DNA of 64,000 bases from Desulfosporosinus sp. FKB (GCF_002196705.1 NZ_NADJ01000039.1:1-64000); one strand, 5' to 3'; numbered from the stretch's first letter, positions 1 through 6,985 are shown. Numbers and translations are program-made. Notes: generated from the sequence alone by a model not told the origin.

Positions 1-130
1 CTCAATTTTGGTAGATTTGTACGCAATCAAATTATACCAAAACCCTGTGTTCATGCGGAATTTTTATATCTGTTTGACCCAATTAAGCCGGAATTAGAGC
101 TGATTTATTAGGTGCGAAACTTCAGTACTT

Positions 131-184
131 AAAATACAAAGATGGAGAACTTACAAATTGCTAAGTTCTCCATCTTTGTATTTT
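131..184 (-). terminator. Intrinsic terminator overlapping the 3' end of comA
   Basis: A perfect 23-bp inverted repeat (131-153 and 162-184) encloses an 8-nt loop. On the minus strand it ends in a T-rich tail (TATTTTAAG). Its upstream arm is the last coding stretch of the response regulator, so the final codons and the stop lie inside the hairpin. Confidence 0.8.
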
Positions 185-834
185 AGGACAGCTTCCAAAC
201 GTGTTTTTACATTCATTTTTACAAGGATGTTACTAACATGAAAATTAACAGTTGCCACTTTAATTCCCAAAACCTCTGCAATATCCTTGTTGTGTAACCC
301 TCTTGATACTAATTCAATAATTTCACTTTCTTTAGGTGTTAGCTTTTCTCCAGGTAGTTCTACAATTTCAGCAAGAGCATGTATCCTATCACAGTTATTT
401 TCGGAAGGAAGGAAAATCTCTAAACCCTTCGAAAAATAAACTCCACTATTATAAACTTTTAGTATTCCTTGAATCATCTCCTGCACAGCACAGTCCTTTA
501 ATAAAAAACCATCAGCTCCTCTACTCATTGATTTAGTAATATAACCTTTTGGACTATACCCGGTCAGCATAATGATTTTTACTACTGGTTGAACCTTCTT
601 TATCTTGTCAATTAAGTCAGTACCACTAGCATCGGGAAGCTTAATATCCAACAGTACGACGTCGGGTTTAGATACTGAAATTAAGCTCAAACATTCTTTT
701 CCACTCTTAGCTATTCCGACTACCGAGATTCGGGGTTCAGAGGATAATAAGGAAACAGTTCCTTCCGCAAAAAGTGTATGATCGTCTACTACTAGTACCT
801 TAATCTTTAGTAGTTTTTCAAGGTTGAATGGCAC
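151..834 (-). CDS. comA: ComA-like response regulator, NarL/LuxR family
   Basis: This 227-residue protein is a two-component transcription factor, expected to be phosphorylated by the adjacent kinase. The receiver domain is at about residues 10-130, with acidic pair D17/D18, phosphoacceptor D63, T91 and K113. A LuxR-type helix-turn-helix is at about 164-220 (LTPKESEIIELVSRGL). The start is GTG at 834 behind GAGAGGAAG. It shares with Bacillus ComA, as I recall that sequence, the TGY after the receiver Thr and the LTP-E and RTEAVL-like blocks of the DNA-binding domain. It is the last gene of the comX-comQ-comP-comA operon. The family call is firm; the comA name rests mainly on the neighbours. 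Confidence 0.85.
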   Translation of the reverse strand: MPFNLEKLLKIKVLVVDDHTLFAEGTVSLLSSEPRISVVGIAKSGKECLSLISVSKPDVVLLDIKLPDASGTDLIDKIKKVQPVVKIIMLTGYSPKGYITKSMSRGADGFLLKDCAVQEMIQGILKVYNSGVYFSKGLEIFLPSENNCDRIHALAEIVELPGEKLTPKESEIIELVSRGLHNKDIAEVLGIKVATVNFHVSNILVKMNVKTRLEAVLKYKDGELSNL

Positions 835-889
835 ATCTATCTTCCTCTCATTTATAGAACACTCATAAAATTGATATGGGATAATCTTT

Positions 890-3238
890 TCAAACTATAG
901 GTATTACAGCTCTAAGAATGGTACCCTGCCCGATTATTGAATTAATTTGAAACTCACCTCCTAAATTTTCCAATCGTTCTTTCATTCCAACAATTCCAAA
1001 GTGAACACTTGTCAGTAACCAATCCTCTATTTTACTAGTATCAAACCCTTTACCAGAATCGCTCACTGTCAATTCTAACCTTGATTCCTTCATTTTAATT
1101 TGAACCTCTAACTTTCTAGAGCCTGAATGTTTTAAGGCATTTGTTATACCTTCCTGTACAAACCGAAAAGCTGCTAATTCTACTCCTTCCGCATACCGTT
1201 CTTCGCGATTCATGCCTTCAGTCTCAAGGGAAATTAGCAATAACTCGTTATGCATAATTTCTTCACATAATAATTCAATAGCAGGAACCAGACCTAAATC
1301 AGTTAACGACGGAGGACGCAGGTCATTACATATTAATCGGAGCTCAAAGTTCAAATTTTCTACTAGTTCTCGCATATGACAAATTGCTTTGTTAGCCTTC
1401 GTGTTCTCACTACAATGACACTCTTCCACTAAGTAATTTAGCCAACGATTCATGTCTAGTCCTAATTGCAAAGGCCCATCATGAATCTCGCTGGCTATTA
1501 ACTTTCTCTCTTTTTCCAGATTTCTAAACAAAGAGATATTTATTCCCTGAAGCCCCTGAGTTTTACGTTGTGCCTCGAGAGATCGTTGAGCTAAGTCATT
1601 TATTTCTTTCGACAGCTCCCGAATAACAAGTATAGTCTTAAGCCGATGAGCCATTTGACTGGAAACCAATTCAATTAACGGAAGTTCATCCGGCTCAAAT
1701 TTAACATTCGATTTGCGATGACCTAAAAATATTCCAAAAGTGTAATCGTCACTAATAACAGGAATGTAAAGTTCGGCTGAATAATCATCCGAAAGAATTT
1801 TGGGATCGAAGCTAGTTTCCAAGTCTCTTTGAAAAAATTCCTCCAACGCATTTTGTTCGTTTGGTTCTTTTAAAAATCTCCCCGAAGCCCTTTTAAGATA
1901 TCCCCCTTTACCATTCTCTACAATTATGAAAACACCCTCAATGGCCAGTCTTCGAATCATTTCTTCCATTATCAGATTTTCTTCATTAAGTATAGACAAC
2001 TGCTCATTTAGTTCAAGAATTCTATTTTTGAAAGAATTCTTGTTATTTTTAAATATGAATTTATCTAACAATTTAGTTGTTGAAAATCTTAGTACATCAA
2101 AACCTCCAAAAAAGATTATAAATAAAACCGGAGTCCAAAGATATGGCTTCAGACTAAATTTTTCTGATTCTTTTAAAGCAAAAAGCAGGTAACTTATCAC
2201 AAGACAGATAATTACTGCCGAAACGACGAATGGTATTATAATCTCTAATAGCCTTCGACTATCCGGTAAATATTTATTTACTACGGCATAATACGAGATA
2301 GCTGGAATCACTGAAACAAAAAGTGAACTAAAATGAGAATTCATAAGCGGTTGAAGTCCAAGGATAGTAGGAATTGCCGTCAGAAGAACAAATGGCAAAA
2401 AACCAACCACCATACCAATAAGTAAAATATTTACCTGATTTTTTTGCGGTTTATCTTTATGTAAACTTAATAAGGAACTTAAATTCCAAAGCGCAAAAAG
2501 ACTACCAAAGGTCATTATTGCTAGGACCAGTTTTCTTAATGCGCTGAAGGAACTTGTAATATTTGCAGATTGCAACACAGTTATTAATAAGATAAACGCA
2601 AACATCAATTTGAGAATGCGACGACCCCAGCGATTAATCTGTTTATTTTTGTCTTTTAAGAAAACCGAAATAAAATCATTAAGGTAGATGGGCACAGCCG
2701 CAAAAATCATATACTCCAATTCCCGAGCAAATAACAAATCACGGCTCGAGGCTGAAGCTAAGACGATAGCCAAGCCCGTACTCCAGTTAAACCAAAATAA
2801 CTTCCGAGCCTCGACCAGAAACGGGCGTCTTAACCAGGTAGCAAATCCTAAAAGCCAAAAAACAACCCCAAGGATTGTAAAGGGAATTTCACTTATAGTA
2901 TTCTGCAAAATTGAGGGTATAGGAATATTAATCATCTGATCAGATATACCGTTTTGCTTAAGGACTTCGAACGTTGAGGCTCCCTCTGCCTCACTCCATT
3001 TCTGAATTAAGGAATAATTTTCGGGAGCGTCTTTGTCTATTTTCACGATAACATCATCTATACGGATCCCCGATTTGTAACCTTCACCTTGAGGATCCGC
3101 GGAAATGACTTTCCATTGTCCCTTAATTTCTCTAATCTTTAGGCCAATATATGGTTGTTTCATAGCAGCAAAAAAATAAACAAGCGCTAATAAGATAAAG
3201 ACGGCACTAGCATAATAATATGCTTGCCGCCTAAACAT
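890..3238 (-). CDS. comP: ComP-like membrane sensor histidine kinase with PDZ domain
   Basis: This membrane histidine kinase probably senses the ComX-type pheromone. Counting from the upstream TTG at 3250 it has 786 residues. It has a first membrane helix (about 13-31), an extracellular PDZ-like segment (about 34-108), then roughly nine more helices to about residue 390. A GAF-like cytoplasmic region (about 405-540) follows, then a HisKA_3 domain with H590 in ASEIHDGPLQ. The HATPase has N-box FVQEGITNALKHSG and G-box DSGKGFD. B. subtilis ComP has the same architecture. The ATG at 3238 is preferred, but TTG at 3250 is possible. Either way the start overlaps the end of comQ, implying translational coupling. 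Confidence 0.85.
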   Translation of the reverse strand: MFRRQAYYYASAVFILLALVYFFAAMKQPYIGLKIREIKGQWKVISADPQGEGYKSGIRIDDVIVKIDKDAPENYSLIQKWSEAEGASTFEVLKQNGISDQMINIPIPSILQNTISEIPFTILGVVFWLLGFATWLRRPFLVEARKLFWFNWSTGLAIVLASASSRDLLFARELEYMIFAAVPIYLNDFISVFLKDKNKQINRWGRRILKLMFAFILLITVLQSANITSSFSALRKLVLAIMTFGSLFALWNLSSLLSLHKDKPQKNQVNILLIGMVVGFLPFVLLTAIPTILGLQPLMNSHFSSLFVSVIPAISYYAVVNKYLPDSRRLLEIIIPFVVSAVIICLVISYLLFALKESEKFSLKPYLWTPVLFIIFFGGFDVLRFSTTKLLDKFIFKNNKNSFKNRILELNEQLSILNEENLIMEEMIRRLAIEGVFIIVENGKGGYLKRASGRFLKEPNEQNALEEFFQRDLETSFDPKILSDDYSAELYIPVISDDYTFGIFLGHRKSNVKFEPDELPLIELVSSQMAHRLKTILVIRELSKEINDLAQRSLEAQRKTQGLQGINISLFRNLEKERKLIASEIHDGPLQLGLDMNRWLNYLVEECHCSENTKANKAICHMRELVENLNFELRLICNDLRPPSLTDLGLVPAIELLCEEIMHNELLLISLETEGMNREERYAEGVELAAFRFVQEGITNALKHSGSRKLEVQIKMKESRLELTVSDSGKGFDTSKIEDWLLTSVHFGIVGMKERLENLGGEFQINSIIGQGTILRAVIPIV

Positions 3239-4172
3239 TTTCTTCAACAAGTTTGATCATCTTTTCCTTACGATTTTCGAGAACCGGAAGCCTTTGCACC
3301 ATTTCCAGTGACTTTCTCCGGAATAGTTCATACATAACTCTACAGTAGTGAACAACCCCTTCATCTATGGCCAGTTGTTTTAAATAATCTTGTTCTTGCT
3401 TTCCAAGCCTTTGTAATCGAGTCAAGTCTCTAAACTCGTCTGCTTTTTTGCCTTCTAGAGTGTTCAGTAGATAGACAAACGGAAGCGTTTTGCGGTTGTT
3501 AACAAAATCCCTTTTCTTCTCAAAGTTTAAGAAGTCATTTAAATCGTTCCATAGTTGGCTCATAATACCCAAATTTAATCCAAACTGTTCCGATTGTAAT
3601 ACTATATCTTCCGATGCTCCTCCTAAAATTGCACCAATTTTACATGCAGAAGCTGTTAGACTACCTGACTTTCGTTTTACCAAATCAAAATAATCATCAA
3701 GGGATACTTTTTCGCGAGTGTCAAATAATGCCTCTTGAAATTGACCATCACTTGCTCTTATCCACATTTTGTTTAAGGTCTGATTAACTTCCCTGTAAAT
3801 ACGACCATCTTGTATTTGCTCGACAGCCTCACTACTCAACATACTTAAACAGATAGCCAGATTGAGAGCGTTTGCTGTAGGAATTTTACGCCAAGGTTGG
3901 TCATCATTATCCTGATCCTGAATATCATCAAAAATGTCGGCTGCCAGGGCAGCTAATTCCATAGCAATTGCACCAGGTAGTGAAACTTCAGGCACTCCAT
4001 TTATACATTCGCAATTCAACAATGTCAGATGGGCCCACCTGTAGGGTTCGCCGGCCTTACTATTAGCTTCCAAGGAAGAATACATAATATCTTGAATCTC
4101 TGAACTCAGAAGAGTTTTACATAGTAAATTGGTGATTTCAACTGTAATGCTTTGATCAAGATGATGGCCCAT
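3231..4172 (-). CDS. comQ: ComQ-like isoprenyl transferase (polyprenyl synthase fold)
   Basis: This enzyme is predicted to attach an isoprenoid to the tryptophan of the ComX precursor and help process and export it. Numbered from the alternative TTG at 4187, the first aspartate-rich motif is DDIQD (87-91) within a strongly acidic run, and the second is NDLND (214-218). These correspond to the two metal/diphosphate sites of polyprenyl synthases. The protein is about 313-318 residues, close to Bacillus ComQ. The start is unclear: ATG at 4172 lies 5 nt past the comX stop, while TTG at 4187 would overlap comX. Its position between a tiny ORF ending in DFWG and a PDZ kinase favours ComQ over a housekeeping prenyl synthase. 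Confidence 0.85.
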   Translation of the reverse strand: MGHHLDQSITVEITNLLCKTLLSSEIQDIMYSSLEANSKAGEPYRWAHLTLLNCECINGVPEVSLPGAIAMELAALAADIFDDIQDQDNDDQPWRKIPTANALNLAICLSMLSSEAVEQIQDGRIYREVNQTLNKMWIRASDGQFQEALFDTREKVSLDDYFDLVKRKSGSLTASACKIGAILGGASEDIVLQSEQFGLNLGIMSQLWNDLNDFLNFEKKRDFVNNRKTLPFVYLLNTLEGKKADEFRDLTRLQRLGKQEQDYLKQLAIDEGVVHYCRVMYELFRRKSLEMVQRLPVLENRKEKMIKLVEENV

Positions 4173-4177
4173 TTCCC

Positions 4178-4375
4178 TTATCCCCAAAAATCCAGCGGCG
4201 TAATTTCAAACGTCAAAATATCCCCGGACACCTCAAGCTTGGAAAAAACTTTTTGAATGCATGTGAATTCATTCATCCTCACTTCTTCCGATAGTACTTC
4301 CTCTTTTAACACCTCCGGGCTTTTAGGATTTTTGACTAATTTATGTACGAGCTCTGCAATCTGTTGATAATTCAT
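4178..4375 (-). CDS. comX: ComX-like pheromone precursor peptide
   Basis: This 65-residue peptide lies directly upstream of the prenyl transferase and has no signal peptide. Its N-terminal half is charged (EVLKEEVLSEEVRMNE). Its C-terminus is ITPLDFWG, with a single Trp at position 64. In the ComX family a C-terminal Trp is prenylated and the last 5-10 or so residues form the pheromone. The start at 4375 is preferred over an upstream in-frame ATG at 4432 because GAAAGGA lies about 10 nt before it and the promoter sits at 4417-4445, downstream of the longer start. Sequence similarity to known ComX cannot be shown by eye and is expected to be low. The call rests on size, the C-terminal Trp and gene order. 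Confidence 0.8.
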   Translation of the reverse strand: MNYQQIAELVHKLVKNPKSPEVLKEEVLSEEVRMNEFTCIQKVFSKLEVSGDILTFEITPLDFWG

Positions 4376-4416
4376 TTTTATAACATCCTTTCTTCGATTA
4401 TTTGATAGTTTTTGAG

Positions 4417-4445
4417 ATAATAATTGTATCAAGTTCCAATGTCAA
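4417..4445 (-). promoter_or_regulatory. Sigma-A-type promoter of the comXQPA operon
   Basis: Read on the minus strand this gives TTGACA (4440-4445), a 17-nt spacer and TATTAT (4417-4422). It lies about 42 nt upstream of the comX ATG. Two direct copies of ACTGAAA lie immediately upstream of the -35 box (listed separately). Confidence 0.75.
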
Positions 4446-4477: not shown

Positions 4478-4621
4478 CATATTATTTAATTCTCTTTTTT
4501 ATTTGCGTTCCCTGCAATGAAATTTGGATAATCCTGTCGAATCCGAAAATTATTCTGTAAAAACCAAAATGGAACACCTTTGATGAGATATCTCTAGAAA
4601 CAATATTGTAAAGTATCTTGT

Positions 4622-4792: not shown

Positions 4793-5596
4793 TTATACAA
4801 TTTGCTCTTTTGAATTTCTTCCCCTTATAAAAATTGCCATAAATACCTGAGGAACCAGACACATGATAGCAATAGCTGTTAAGGCTTTAGGGACATTCTC
4901 AAACCCTCCGAAGTTACCATTTACTGCATGATTATACATAAAGCAATTAATTTGAGTACCTAACACTAGTAAAAATAGCCCAATGAAACTAGTTACTGTC
5001 CACACAAGTCCAAACTTAATGCTTCTTGTAATTCGATATAAAATAAGAAAACAAGCAATATTGACAGCTACCAATAGCAGCACGAATCTTAGGCGCGGGA
5101 ATACTTCAGATAAATAGACAGCTGTCACAATAAAACCCTGGCAATATATCACTGCTTTTCTTACATTAGTAGGAGCATAGATAAACGCAAATGAAGATTC
5201 AATAACAAACATCCCTATTAGATAAACCAGTTCTGCCAATCTTGGAATAAAAATACCGAGGACTATTTGATCTCCAAACCCAATAATTCGTAATAGGCTG
5301 TTACCCATATCAGCTGACCCTAAAACGGATAGAATTAAAATCAAACCTAACCCTATGCCAACTAAGTTTGGACGATGCGTACGGTCAAGCTGTTTTCCGA
5401 CGATAACGGGATCACCCATCTCGGCAATAGCCTTCTTAGTTGCCTCTTCCTCATCGAGTCCATCATCTACAAAGGCGCTAATTTGATCGTTAATATGATT
5501 ATTGATTTCCTCTAAAAGAGAAGACTGAATCTTCTTCCAACGTATCTGTTGGCGCACAATTTCCAAGTACTCAGGGATTATGCTAGTCTGTTGCAA
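4793..5596 (-). CDS. HAAS-domain integral membrane protein
   Basis: The N-terminal 75 or so residues form a soluble HAAS/permease-prefix-like domain (helical, with EEEATKKAIAEMGDPVIVGKQLD). About six hydrophobic segments follow to the C-terminus. Proteins of this type typically sit beside a PadR regulator, as here. They are thought to couple that regulator to membrane functions, but no specific activity can be assigned. The start is chosen at TTG 5596 because AGGAGG lies 8 nt upstream; a GTG at 5605 is possible. Either start lies inside the last codons of padR, so the two genes are coupled. Confidence 0.75.
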   Translation of the reverse strand: MQQTSIIPEYLEIVRQQIRWKKIQSSLLEEINNHINDQISAFVDDGLDEEEATKKAIAEMGDPVIVGKQLDRTHRPNLVGIGLGLILILSVLGSADMGNSLLRIIGFGDQIVLGIFIPRLAELVYLIGMFVIESSFAFIYAPTNVRKAVIYCQGFIVTAVYLSEVFPRLRFVLLLVAVNIACFLILYRITRSIKFGLVWTVTSFIGLFLLVLGTQINCFMYNHAVNGNFGGFENVPKALTAIAIMCLVPQVFMAIFIRGRNSKEQIV

Positions 5597-5927
5597 AACT
5601 TGCACCTCCTAACACTTCATTTATCGCGGCAATGTACGTTTTCCATTCTTCCCTTTTCTCATTTAAACAATTGTGGCCATTTTTCGTGATACTATAATAT
5701 TTCCGTACCTTCGCATTATCAGCAATGTCTTCATACGAAGTGACCATGTTCTTTTTCTCTAAAGTGTGGAGCAACGGATATAATGTACCGGCTTTTAACT
5801 CAAAAACATTATTTGACTTTTTCCGAAGCTCTTCAATCATTTGGTACCCATACATATCCTTTTCATCAAGCAGTCTTAAAATCAGCATGGTAGTATTCCC
5901 GGTTAAAAAACTTTTATCAATTGTCAC
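5583..5927 (-). CDS. PadR family transcriptional regulator
   Basis: This 114-residue winged-helix repressor has the PadR signature near its N-terminus (LDEKDMYGYQMIEELRKKS), followed by the wing (GTLYPLLHTLEKKNMV) and a short C-terminal dimerisation helix. The start is GTG at 5927 behind GGAGGG. It is the first gene of an operon with the HAAS-domain protein. Its promoter carries two palindromes of the same sequence, so autoregulation is likely. The inducer is unknown. Confidence 0.9.
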   Translation of the reverse strand: MTIDKSFLTGNTTMLILRLLDEKDMYGYQMIEELRKKSNNVFELKAGTLYPLLHTLEKKNMVTSYEDIADNAKVRKYYSITKNGHNCLNEKREEWKTYIAAINEVLGGASFATD

Positions 5928-6136: not shown

Positions 6137-6985
6137 CTAATTATTGTACACATTGCCATCCCCATCTGCTTTGTCATATTGACCTCCACCCACTCTAGTA
6201 AATCTAAGTTTAGCGTTGCTAAACGTTTTAGAGCTTCCGTTAATCAAAAAGGAATAATATCCACTTCCTGTATAGTTTGTCGATCCCCAAACGGTATCTC
6301 CGTACCAATTAGGTTGAACTACTGCATATTGAATATTTGGGACATAACCTGAAAGCCGATCTGTTGAATATTGATGCCCTTGAAGTAATACTTGGCTATA
6401 AACTGAGTTTATATTAAACGAATTTGTACTATACAAAGTCGTATACAGCCCTGTAAATGACCAACTACACAATGAAGTAAGAGCGGCGGGGGAAATCAAA
6501 TTTTGGGAAGTAGTTACCGTAGTCGGGTTTGTATCATCTCTACCTGAAATCATGTTTTCGCCTTTTAACACCTTAAATTTGGAGTCTTCTAACGAACCAG
6601 GGGTTACTATAACTTTCCATTGCCCATTAAAATTACTAACTGTAAATGGAACTTGGGATAAGTCTCCGTTTTTAAACGTCAATTCGGTTATGTATTTCCT
6701 CGAAGTTCGCGAAAGTATTTCCTGGGTTAGAATTTTATACGACGTTAATTGTTCTGATTGGTTTTCAAGTATTTGAGAATAAAATTCCACCCTAGAGGTT
6801 GAAGATACTCTAGAATCATTTGAGAGAGATATCATCTGATTAATATCATTCTTTTGAGTAGCCAGCAAAAATGAAGATAATACACTATTTGCATCTTGAT
6901 TACTATTACTAGCTAATGCATCCACAGGCAACATAGACATTACCATCATAAGAACTACTAATACGGCACTTAACTTAATTTTCAT
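6137..6985 (-). CDS. Secreted protein of unknown function
   Basis: This 282-residue protein has a classical signal peptide: MKIK, a hydrophobic core to about residue 21 and a likely cleavage after VDALA. I recognise no family. Residues 30-130 look like an alpha+beta domain of the kind found in DUF4878/NTF2-like extracellular proteins (an ELTFKNGD...VPFTVSNFNGQWKVIV pattern); this is weak. The C-terminal half is rich in Ser, Tyr, Asn and Gly and ends GDGNVYNN. The start at 6985 has a strong GAGGGGG site. It is monocistronic with its own terminator. It could be a target of the neighbouring quorum-sensing locus, but nothing in the sequence shows this. Confidence 0.6.
   Translation of the reverse strand: MKIKLSAVLVVLMMVMSMLPVDALASNSNQDANSVLSSFLLATQKNDINQMISLSNDSRVSSTSRVEFYSQILENQSEQLTSYKILTQEILSRTSRKYITELTFKNGDLSQVPFTVSNFNGQWKVIVTPGSLEDSKFKVLKGENMISGRDDTNPTTVTTSQNLISPAALTSLCSWSFTGLYTTLYSTNSFNINSVYSQVLLQGHQYSTDRLSGYVPNIQYAVVQPNWYGDTVWGSTNYTGSGYYSFLINGSSKTFSNAKLRFTRVGGGQYDKADGDGNVYNN

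Follow-up and report, generated by a model that had tools for sequence, protein, structure and literature searches.

The first 64,000 nucleotides (nt) of a contig of Desulfosporosinus sp. FKB (GCF_002196705.1, NZ_NADJ01000039.1:1-64000; hereafter, the window) carry close to their start an operon of four genes that resemble comX, comQ, comP and comA of the ComQXPA quorum-sensing systems. Read as open reading frames (ORFs), the genes follow each other in this transcription order on the minus strand from base 4375 to base 151. They are spaced by 5 nt (comX-comQ) and 55 nt (comP-comA) or overlap by 8 nt (comQ/comP), and the contig edge, where the window starts, lies 150 bases past comA. An alternative, longer TTG start of comQ at 4187 would make this gene overlap with comX. 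The initial annotation of this DNA had described a four-gene locus in the order X-Q-P-A with a peptide ending DFWG. Both statements held, as all four genes are present and tightly packed on the minus strand, and the 65-amino acid (aa) product of the first gene ends PLDFWG. The genes and their key residues are as follows.

4386..4391, minus strand: comX ribosome-binding site AAAGGA (direct reading; AAGGR kept in relatives)
4178..4375, minus strand: comX-like propeptide gene (65 aa, ATG start)
4184..4186, minus strand: Trp64 codon, predicted prenylation site (sole Trp of the window peptide; Trp kept in 33/33 peptides)
3231..4172, minus strand: comQ-like tryptophan prenyltransferase gene (313 aa, ATG start)
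3915..3929, minus strand: first Asp-rich motif DDIQD of ComQ, residues 82-86 (D82, D83 and D86 invariant in 24 relatives)
3543..3548, minus strand: Asn209-Asp210 of ComQ, pseudo form of the second Asp-rich motif (pseudo-SARM; invariant in 24 relatives)
890..3238, minus strand: comP-like sensor histidine kinase gene (782 aa)
2927..3142, minus strand: predicted extracellular PDZ-like domain of ComP, candidate pheromone-binding part (residues 33-104, AlphaFold2 strands between helices 1 and 2)
151..834, minus strand: comA-like NarL-family response regulator gene (227 aa, GTG start)

By tblastn and ORF reading, a comX-like gene was found directly upstream of comQ at 33 loci in 27 genomes, the window included. 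We refer to these loci as X-first, and to those with the order Q-X-P-A as canonical. Of the 33 X-first peptides, 31 carry Trp at the next-to-last position and two at the last, and in nearly all orthologues Pro stands four residues ahead of it. In size (50-75 aa) and in the position of its Trp, at most 5-10 residues from the C terminus, the window peptide conforms to ComX, and by analogy its Trp64 is predicted to be prenylated. The ratio of nonsynonymous to synonymous substitution rates (dN/dS) between the window comX and its nearest relative was 0.12, the medians in two subgroups were 0.30 and 0.40, and substitutions fell mostly at codon position 3. The initial annotation had tied its reading to a genuine peptide gene at 4178-4375; comX is a real gene under purifying selection, and a chance ORF is ruled out by the 33 orthologues and the dN/dS values. 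Profile comparison with canonical ComX by hhalign gave 88.7-92.7 percent, with 30 column-shuffled controls at or below 3.4. The peptides of two other Bacillota genomes (G166 and G378) matched both the X-first and the canonical kind and carry an NGKASLG-type stretch of canonical ComX. As judged by profile comparison, the window peptide is homologous to ComX.

The window ComQ matched the Pfam family polyprenyl_synt with 70 bits. In a tree of 61 proteins, 34 X-first and 14 canonical ComQs, the latter including those of Bacillus safensis, Lysinibacillus and Natronobacillus, were separated by a branch with 100/98 support from 13 housekeeping synthases, among them those of the same genome as the window. 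Hence, the window enzyme did not fall with the housekeeping farnesyl diphosphate (FPP), geranylgeranyl diphosphate (GGPP) or heptaprenyl synthases, a placement that the initial annotation had named as speaking against its interpretation. The two Asp-rich motifs seen initially are of different kinds: DDIQD is a true DDxxD motif, whereas the second, NDLND, is the pseudo-SARM of ComQ. All ComQs had DDx[QE]D as part of DI[FLMY]DDxxD, and their second motif was Asn-Asp, where the housekeeping paralogues have Asp-Asp. ComQ requires NDxxx or GDxxx at the pseudo-SARM, and replacement of N by D nearly abolishes its activity (PMC5331326). A Foldseek search with the AlphaFold2 model of the window ComQ (predicted local distance difference test score 91.7) retrieved trans-prenyl synthases as well as Ord1, a Trp prenyltransferase. 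The latter (PDB 9v4g-9v4i), a free-tryptophan farnesyltransferase (PMC13290415), was among the nearest solved folds (template modelling score 0.78-0.82) at an identity of about 20 percent. By tree and ND motif, the enzyme belongs with ComQ and apart from housekeeping prenyl synthases, and its assignment to the latter can largely be dismissed.

Window ComP contains the Pfam domain HATPase_c and a weak HisKA_3 match. Its N-terminal sensor half is, according to hhalign (99.5 percent, E 5e-23), homologous to that of canonical ComP, and it occurred in no other kinase of the same genome. Ten membrane helices are present in the AlphaFold2 model of the protein. The PDZ domain proposed by the initial annotation agrees with a beta-rich domain in this model, whereas the Pfam match to PDZ_2 stayed below the cut-off (E=0.12). 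For Bacillus ComP, a ten-helix topology with a PDZ domain modelled at the same place has been described (PMC9620489). The window ComA contains the Pfam domains Response_reg and GerE. In the respective trees, the X-first and canonical regulators grouped together against eight NarL-type regulators of the same genome (94/91), and the X-first and canonical kinase domains likewise clustered apart from those of the host's other NarL-type systems (95/92).

That comX comes first was confirmed and is conserved across related loci. The order X-Q-P-A was found at 31 of the 33 loci (the window and 30 relatives), including L047 (contig edge before comA), L141 (an unrelated ORF between comP and comA) and L069 (comP split); G166 and G378 have the order X-Q-A-P and a shorter kinase. 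The hosts are Desulfosporosinus, further members of the same family and order and, in a few cases, other Bacillota; they include Desulfosporosinus metallidurans, D. fructosivorans, D. nitroreducens, D. lacus and D. acididurans as well as metagenome-assembled genomes (MAGs) of Peptococcaceae and Desulfitobacteriaceae and one unclassified Bacillota MAG. Canonical Q-X-P-A loci with a ComX of the Pfam family PF05952 occurred in eight searched genomes (G010, G011, G013, G014, G025, G036, G069 and G020, the last with X-P-A seen), six of which harbor both forms. The X-first and canonical loci formed separate clades in the ComP and ComA trees. In the ComQ tree the canonical sequences grouped as a clade; those of the X-first loci may be paraphyletic (p = 0.42 in the approximately unbiased test for a single X-first clade). 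Further deviating arrangements were seen in Lysinibacillus (L098, 1796-5726; L099, 1792-5726), whose loci read comP-comA-comQ, without a comX recognized nearby; in G378, where two X-Q-A-P copies (L148 and L149) lie approximately 15 kb apart, the second one with comQ and comA broken and no comX recognized; and in UBA5188 (L063), where a second comA-like regulator gene (1977-2669) lies immediately upstream of comX.

A 2014 census lists comQXPA in Desulfosporosinus and Syntrophobotulus and calls the order conserved, with comX between comQ and comP (Dogsa et al. 2014, PMC4008528); the presence of such a system in a clostridial anaerobe is therefore not new. These canonical loci share their hosts with the X-first ones and differ from the window locus in having a PF05952 ComX between comQ and comP and a ComQ that is about 30-33 percent identical to that of the window. 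Since its order is X-Q-P-A instead of comQ-comX-comP-comA, we class the window locus as a variant. In the literature searched, with many subscription papers and Table S1 of the 2014 census outside reach, no earlier report of an X-first branch was found. With the ComQXPA systems of the Bacillus subtilis group, the window operon shares a Trp-bearing propeptide, a ComQ with DDxxD and NDxxx, a ten-helix PDZ ComP, a NarL-type regulator and the compact layout. It differs from them in gene order, in a peptide outside PF05952, in host lineage, in the fixation of the X-first Trp at the next-to-last residue and in a ComQ identity of about 30 percent. As far as sequence comparison can tell, the window operon is a member of a distinct and widespread X-first branch of the ComQXPA kind, which is missed by the Pfam ComX model.

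With its gene order, the homology of its peptide, prenyltransferase and ComP sensor half, its ComQ-specific active-site residues and the conservation of Trp and gene order across species, the window operon very probably encodes a quorum-sensing system of the ComQXPA type that makes, prenylates and senses its own peptide. We infer pheromone activity, and with it prenylation, processing, secretion, sensing and target genes, as follows. The 65-aa propeptide would be bound by ComQ, which would transfer a polyprenyl group onto the next-to-last Trp, and the C-terminal stretch would be cut and released as in Bacillus. At high cell density, the released peptide may act on the outer PDZ and membrane part of ComP, which would phosphorylate the adjacently encoded NarL-type regulator and so alter the transcription of target genes. 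Some observations weigh against this interpretation. The window peptide has no Pfam match, and none to PF05952 at E values up to 10; one of 17 relatives matched this model (E 0.14). In B. subtilis, used as the control genome, the model falls short of its own cut-off too. The locus has no linked gene for an exporter or a protease, and the same holds for Bacillus comQXPA (PMC4008528). The window regulator reached 119 bits with some unrelated NarL regulators of its own genome and at most 80 bits with canonical ComA. These bit scores hinted at a swapped back end, in which another two-component system would have supplied the kinase domain and regulator; the trees disagree, as they join both kinds, and this joint grouping would be missed if only pairwise scores were considered.

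It is unlikely that the peptide is instead a prenylated ribosomally synthesized and post-translationally modified peptide (RiPP) with another role, such as the antimicrobial one suggested for PalX-like peptides, whose production or response is regulated by the two-component system. A precedent is PalP-PalX-PalQ of Paenibacillus alvei, a RiPP cluster of a kinase, a precursor likewise bearing a C-terminal Trp and a trans-prenyl-synthase-like Trp prenyltransferase (PMC10853753), which is likened here by description only and in which the precursor is likewise listed before the enzyme. It differs in the true SARM aspartates D200/D204, in consisting of three genes and in the NHLP leader of PalX (PMC10853753), a leader that Pfam detected neither in the window peptide nor in 16 relatives. 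Furthermore, the peptide, ComQ and ComP sensor are homologous, not just analogous, to the ComX system, and no recurrent transporter or immunity gene was found near the loci. A decayed or non-functional ComQXPA copy is highly improbable. Broken relatives do exist, namely a locus with frameshifts (G045, L068), the second copies in G378 (L149) and G004 (L069, with the split comP) and an orphan comQ (G038, L055), but the four window genes are intact, the active-site residues and the Trp are kept, and comX is under purifying selection. The least credible possibility is that ComQ makes prenyl diphosphates for membrane lipids or quinones and that its location beside a short ORF and the genes of a two-component system is fortuitous. 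The enzyme does share its fold and Pfam family with polyprenyl synthases, but it was placed with ComQ in the tree, has ND and not DD at the second motif, which in ComQ is a mark of peptide prenylation, and resides in a genome with separate FPP and polyprenyl synthases; moreover, the four genes are kept together in 27 genomes.

Additional features upstream of comX and at the end of the operon may concern the expression of this putative quorum-sensing system.

4535..4541, minus strand: Spo0A-box-like TTCGACA, about 28 nt upstream of the sigma-H-like -35 element (putative function)
4489..4513, minus strand: sigma-H-like promoter AGGGAAC-N14-GAAT (putative; pattern match to the sigma-H consensus)
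4417..4445, minus strand: sigma-70-type promoter-like site TTGACA-17-TATTAT (11/12 match; not evidently kept in aligned relatives)
130..185, minus strand: terminator-like hairpin closing the operon (arms 130-153 and 162-185, perfect over 24 nt, 8-nt loop)

The single promoter proposed by the initial annotation finds a counterpart in the sigma-70-type site, whereas the relatives instead share a sigma-H-like motif further upstream. AGGRWW-N15/16-GAA(A)T occurred upstream of comX at 13/33 loci (shuffles: mean 1.0, maximum 4), the related motif AGGAAT-N11/13-GTCAAA at 10 further loci (shuffles: mean 0.04), TTCGACA in 9/33 upstream regions (shuffles: mean 0.34, maximum 3) and TTCGACA with AGGRA 18-30 nt away in 8/33 (shuffles: mean 0.02); as the loci are related and not independent, these counts show conservation and not function. 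A longer upstream element of 32 nt, considered as a genome-wide operator or regulon marker, had a single occurrence in the genome. The comX gene of B. subtilis is partly switched on at the transition to stationary phase, and the sigma-H-like motifs suggest that the X-first operon may be turned on at this transition as well. The hairpin, which overlaps the end of comA (RNA fold z -8.4), probably ends the operon transcript.

In eight Desulfosporosinus genomes, with loci of one subgroup (L161, L162, L163; also L058-L062 and L064-L066), the cassette lies inside an exopolysaccharide cluster. Genes for a Wzz chain-length determinant and a ParA/CapB-type tyrosine kinase are located upstream on the same strand, and genes for a CapD/EpsC-type dehydratase, a DegT aminotransferase, a sugar transferase and a PglD-type acetyltransferase downstream on the same strand; a short-chain dehydrogenase/reductase, a Wzy-type ligase and a glycosyltransferase are also encoded downstream, again on this strand. 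This location suggests that exopolysaccharide is under control of the system in the embedded subgroup, with the surrounding cluster as the likely target. The window copy itself is not part of such a cluster, and the polysaccharide cluster of its genome (contig 35) lacks com genes. Its neighbors encode a PadR regulator, a HAAS-domain protein, a secreted protein and GroEL. The PadR-type regulator and HAAS-domain membrane protein genes (4793-5927) follow each other upstream of comX on the same strand, behind a perfect TTGACA-17-TATAAT promoter (5990-5962) of the regulator gene, and the 282-aa secreted protein (6137-6985) has no Pfam family. Small secreted proteins encoded downstream of comA at L052, L069, L046, L051 and L067 are candidate targets; the proteins at L052 and L069 are related.

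It is conceivable, if somewhat doubtful, that the X-first branch is an independent and possibly older source of the Bacillus order, and that it operates alongside canonical loci in some anaerobes and, in the Desulfosporosinus subgroup, acts as an integrated quorum switch for the surrounding exopolysaccharide cluster. To our knowledge, prenyl-peptide signaling is biochemically known almost solely from Bacillus. The X-first loci would represent a second branch of this signaling in strict anaerobes, including sulfate reducers, and most of them are missed by surveys that use the Pfam ComX model or the position of comX after comQ. Their 33 natural peptide-enzyme pairs may provide new enzymes for the Trp prenylation of peptides, and the co-resident homologous pheromone systems offer a way to test how cross-talk is avoided within one cell. 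For Desulfosporosinus, the embedded cassettes yield a direct genetic prediction for the control of biofilm polymers.

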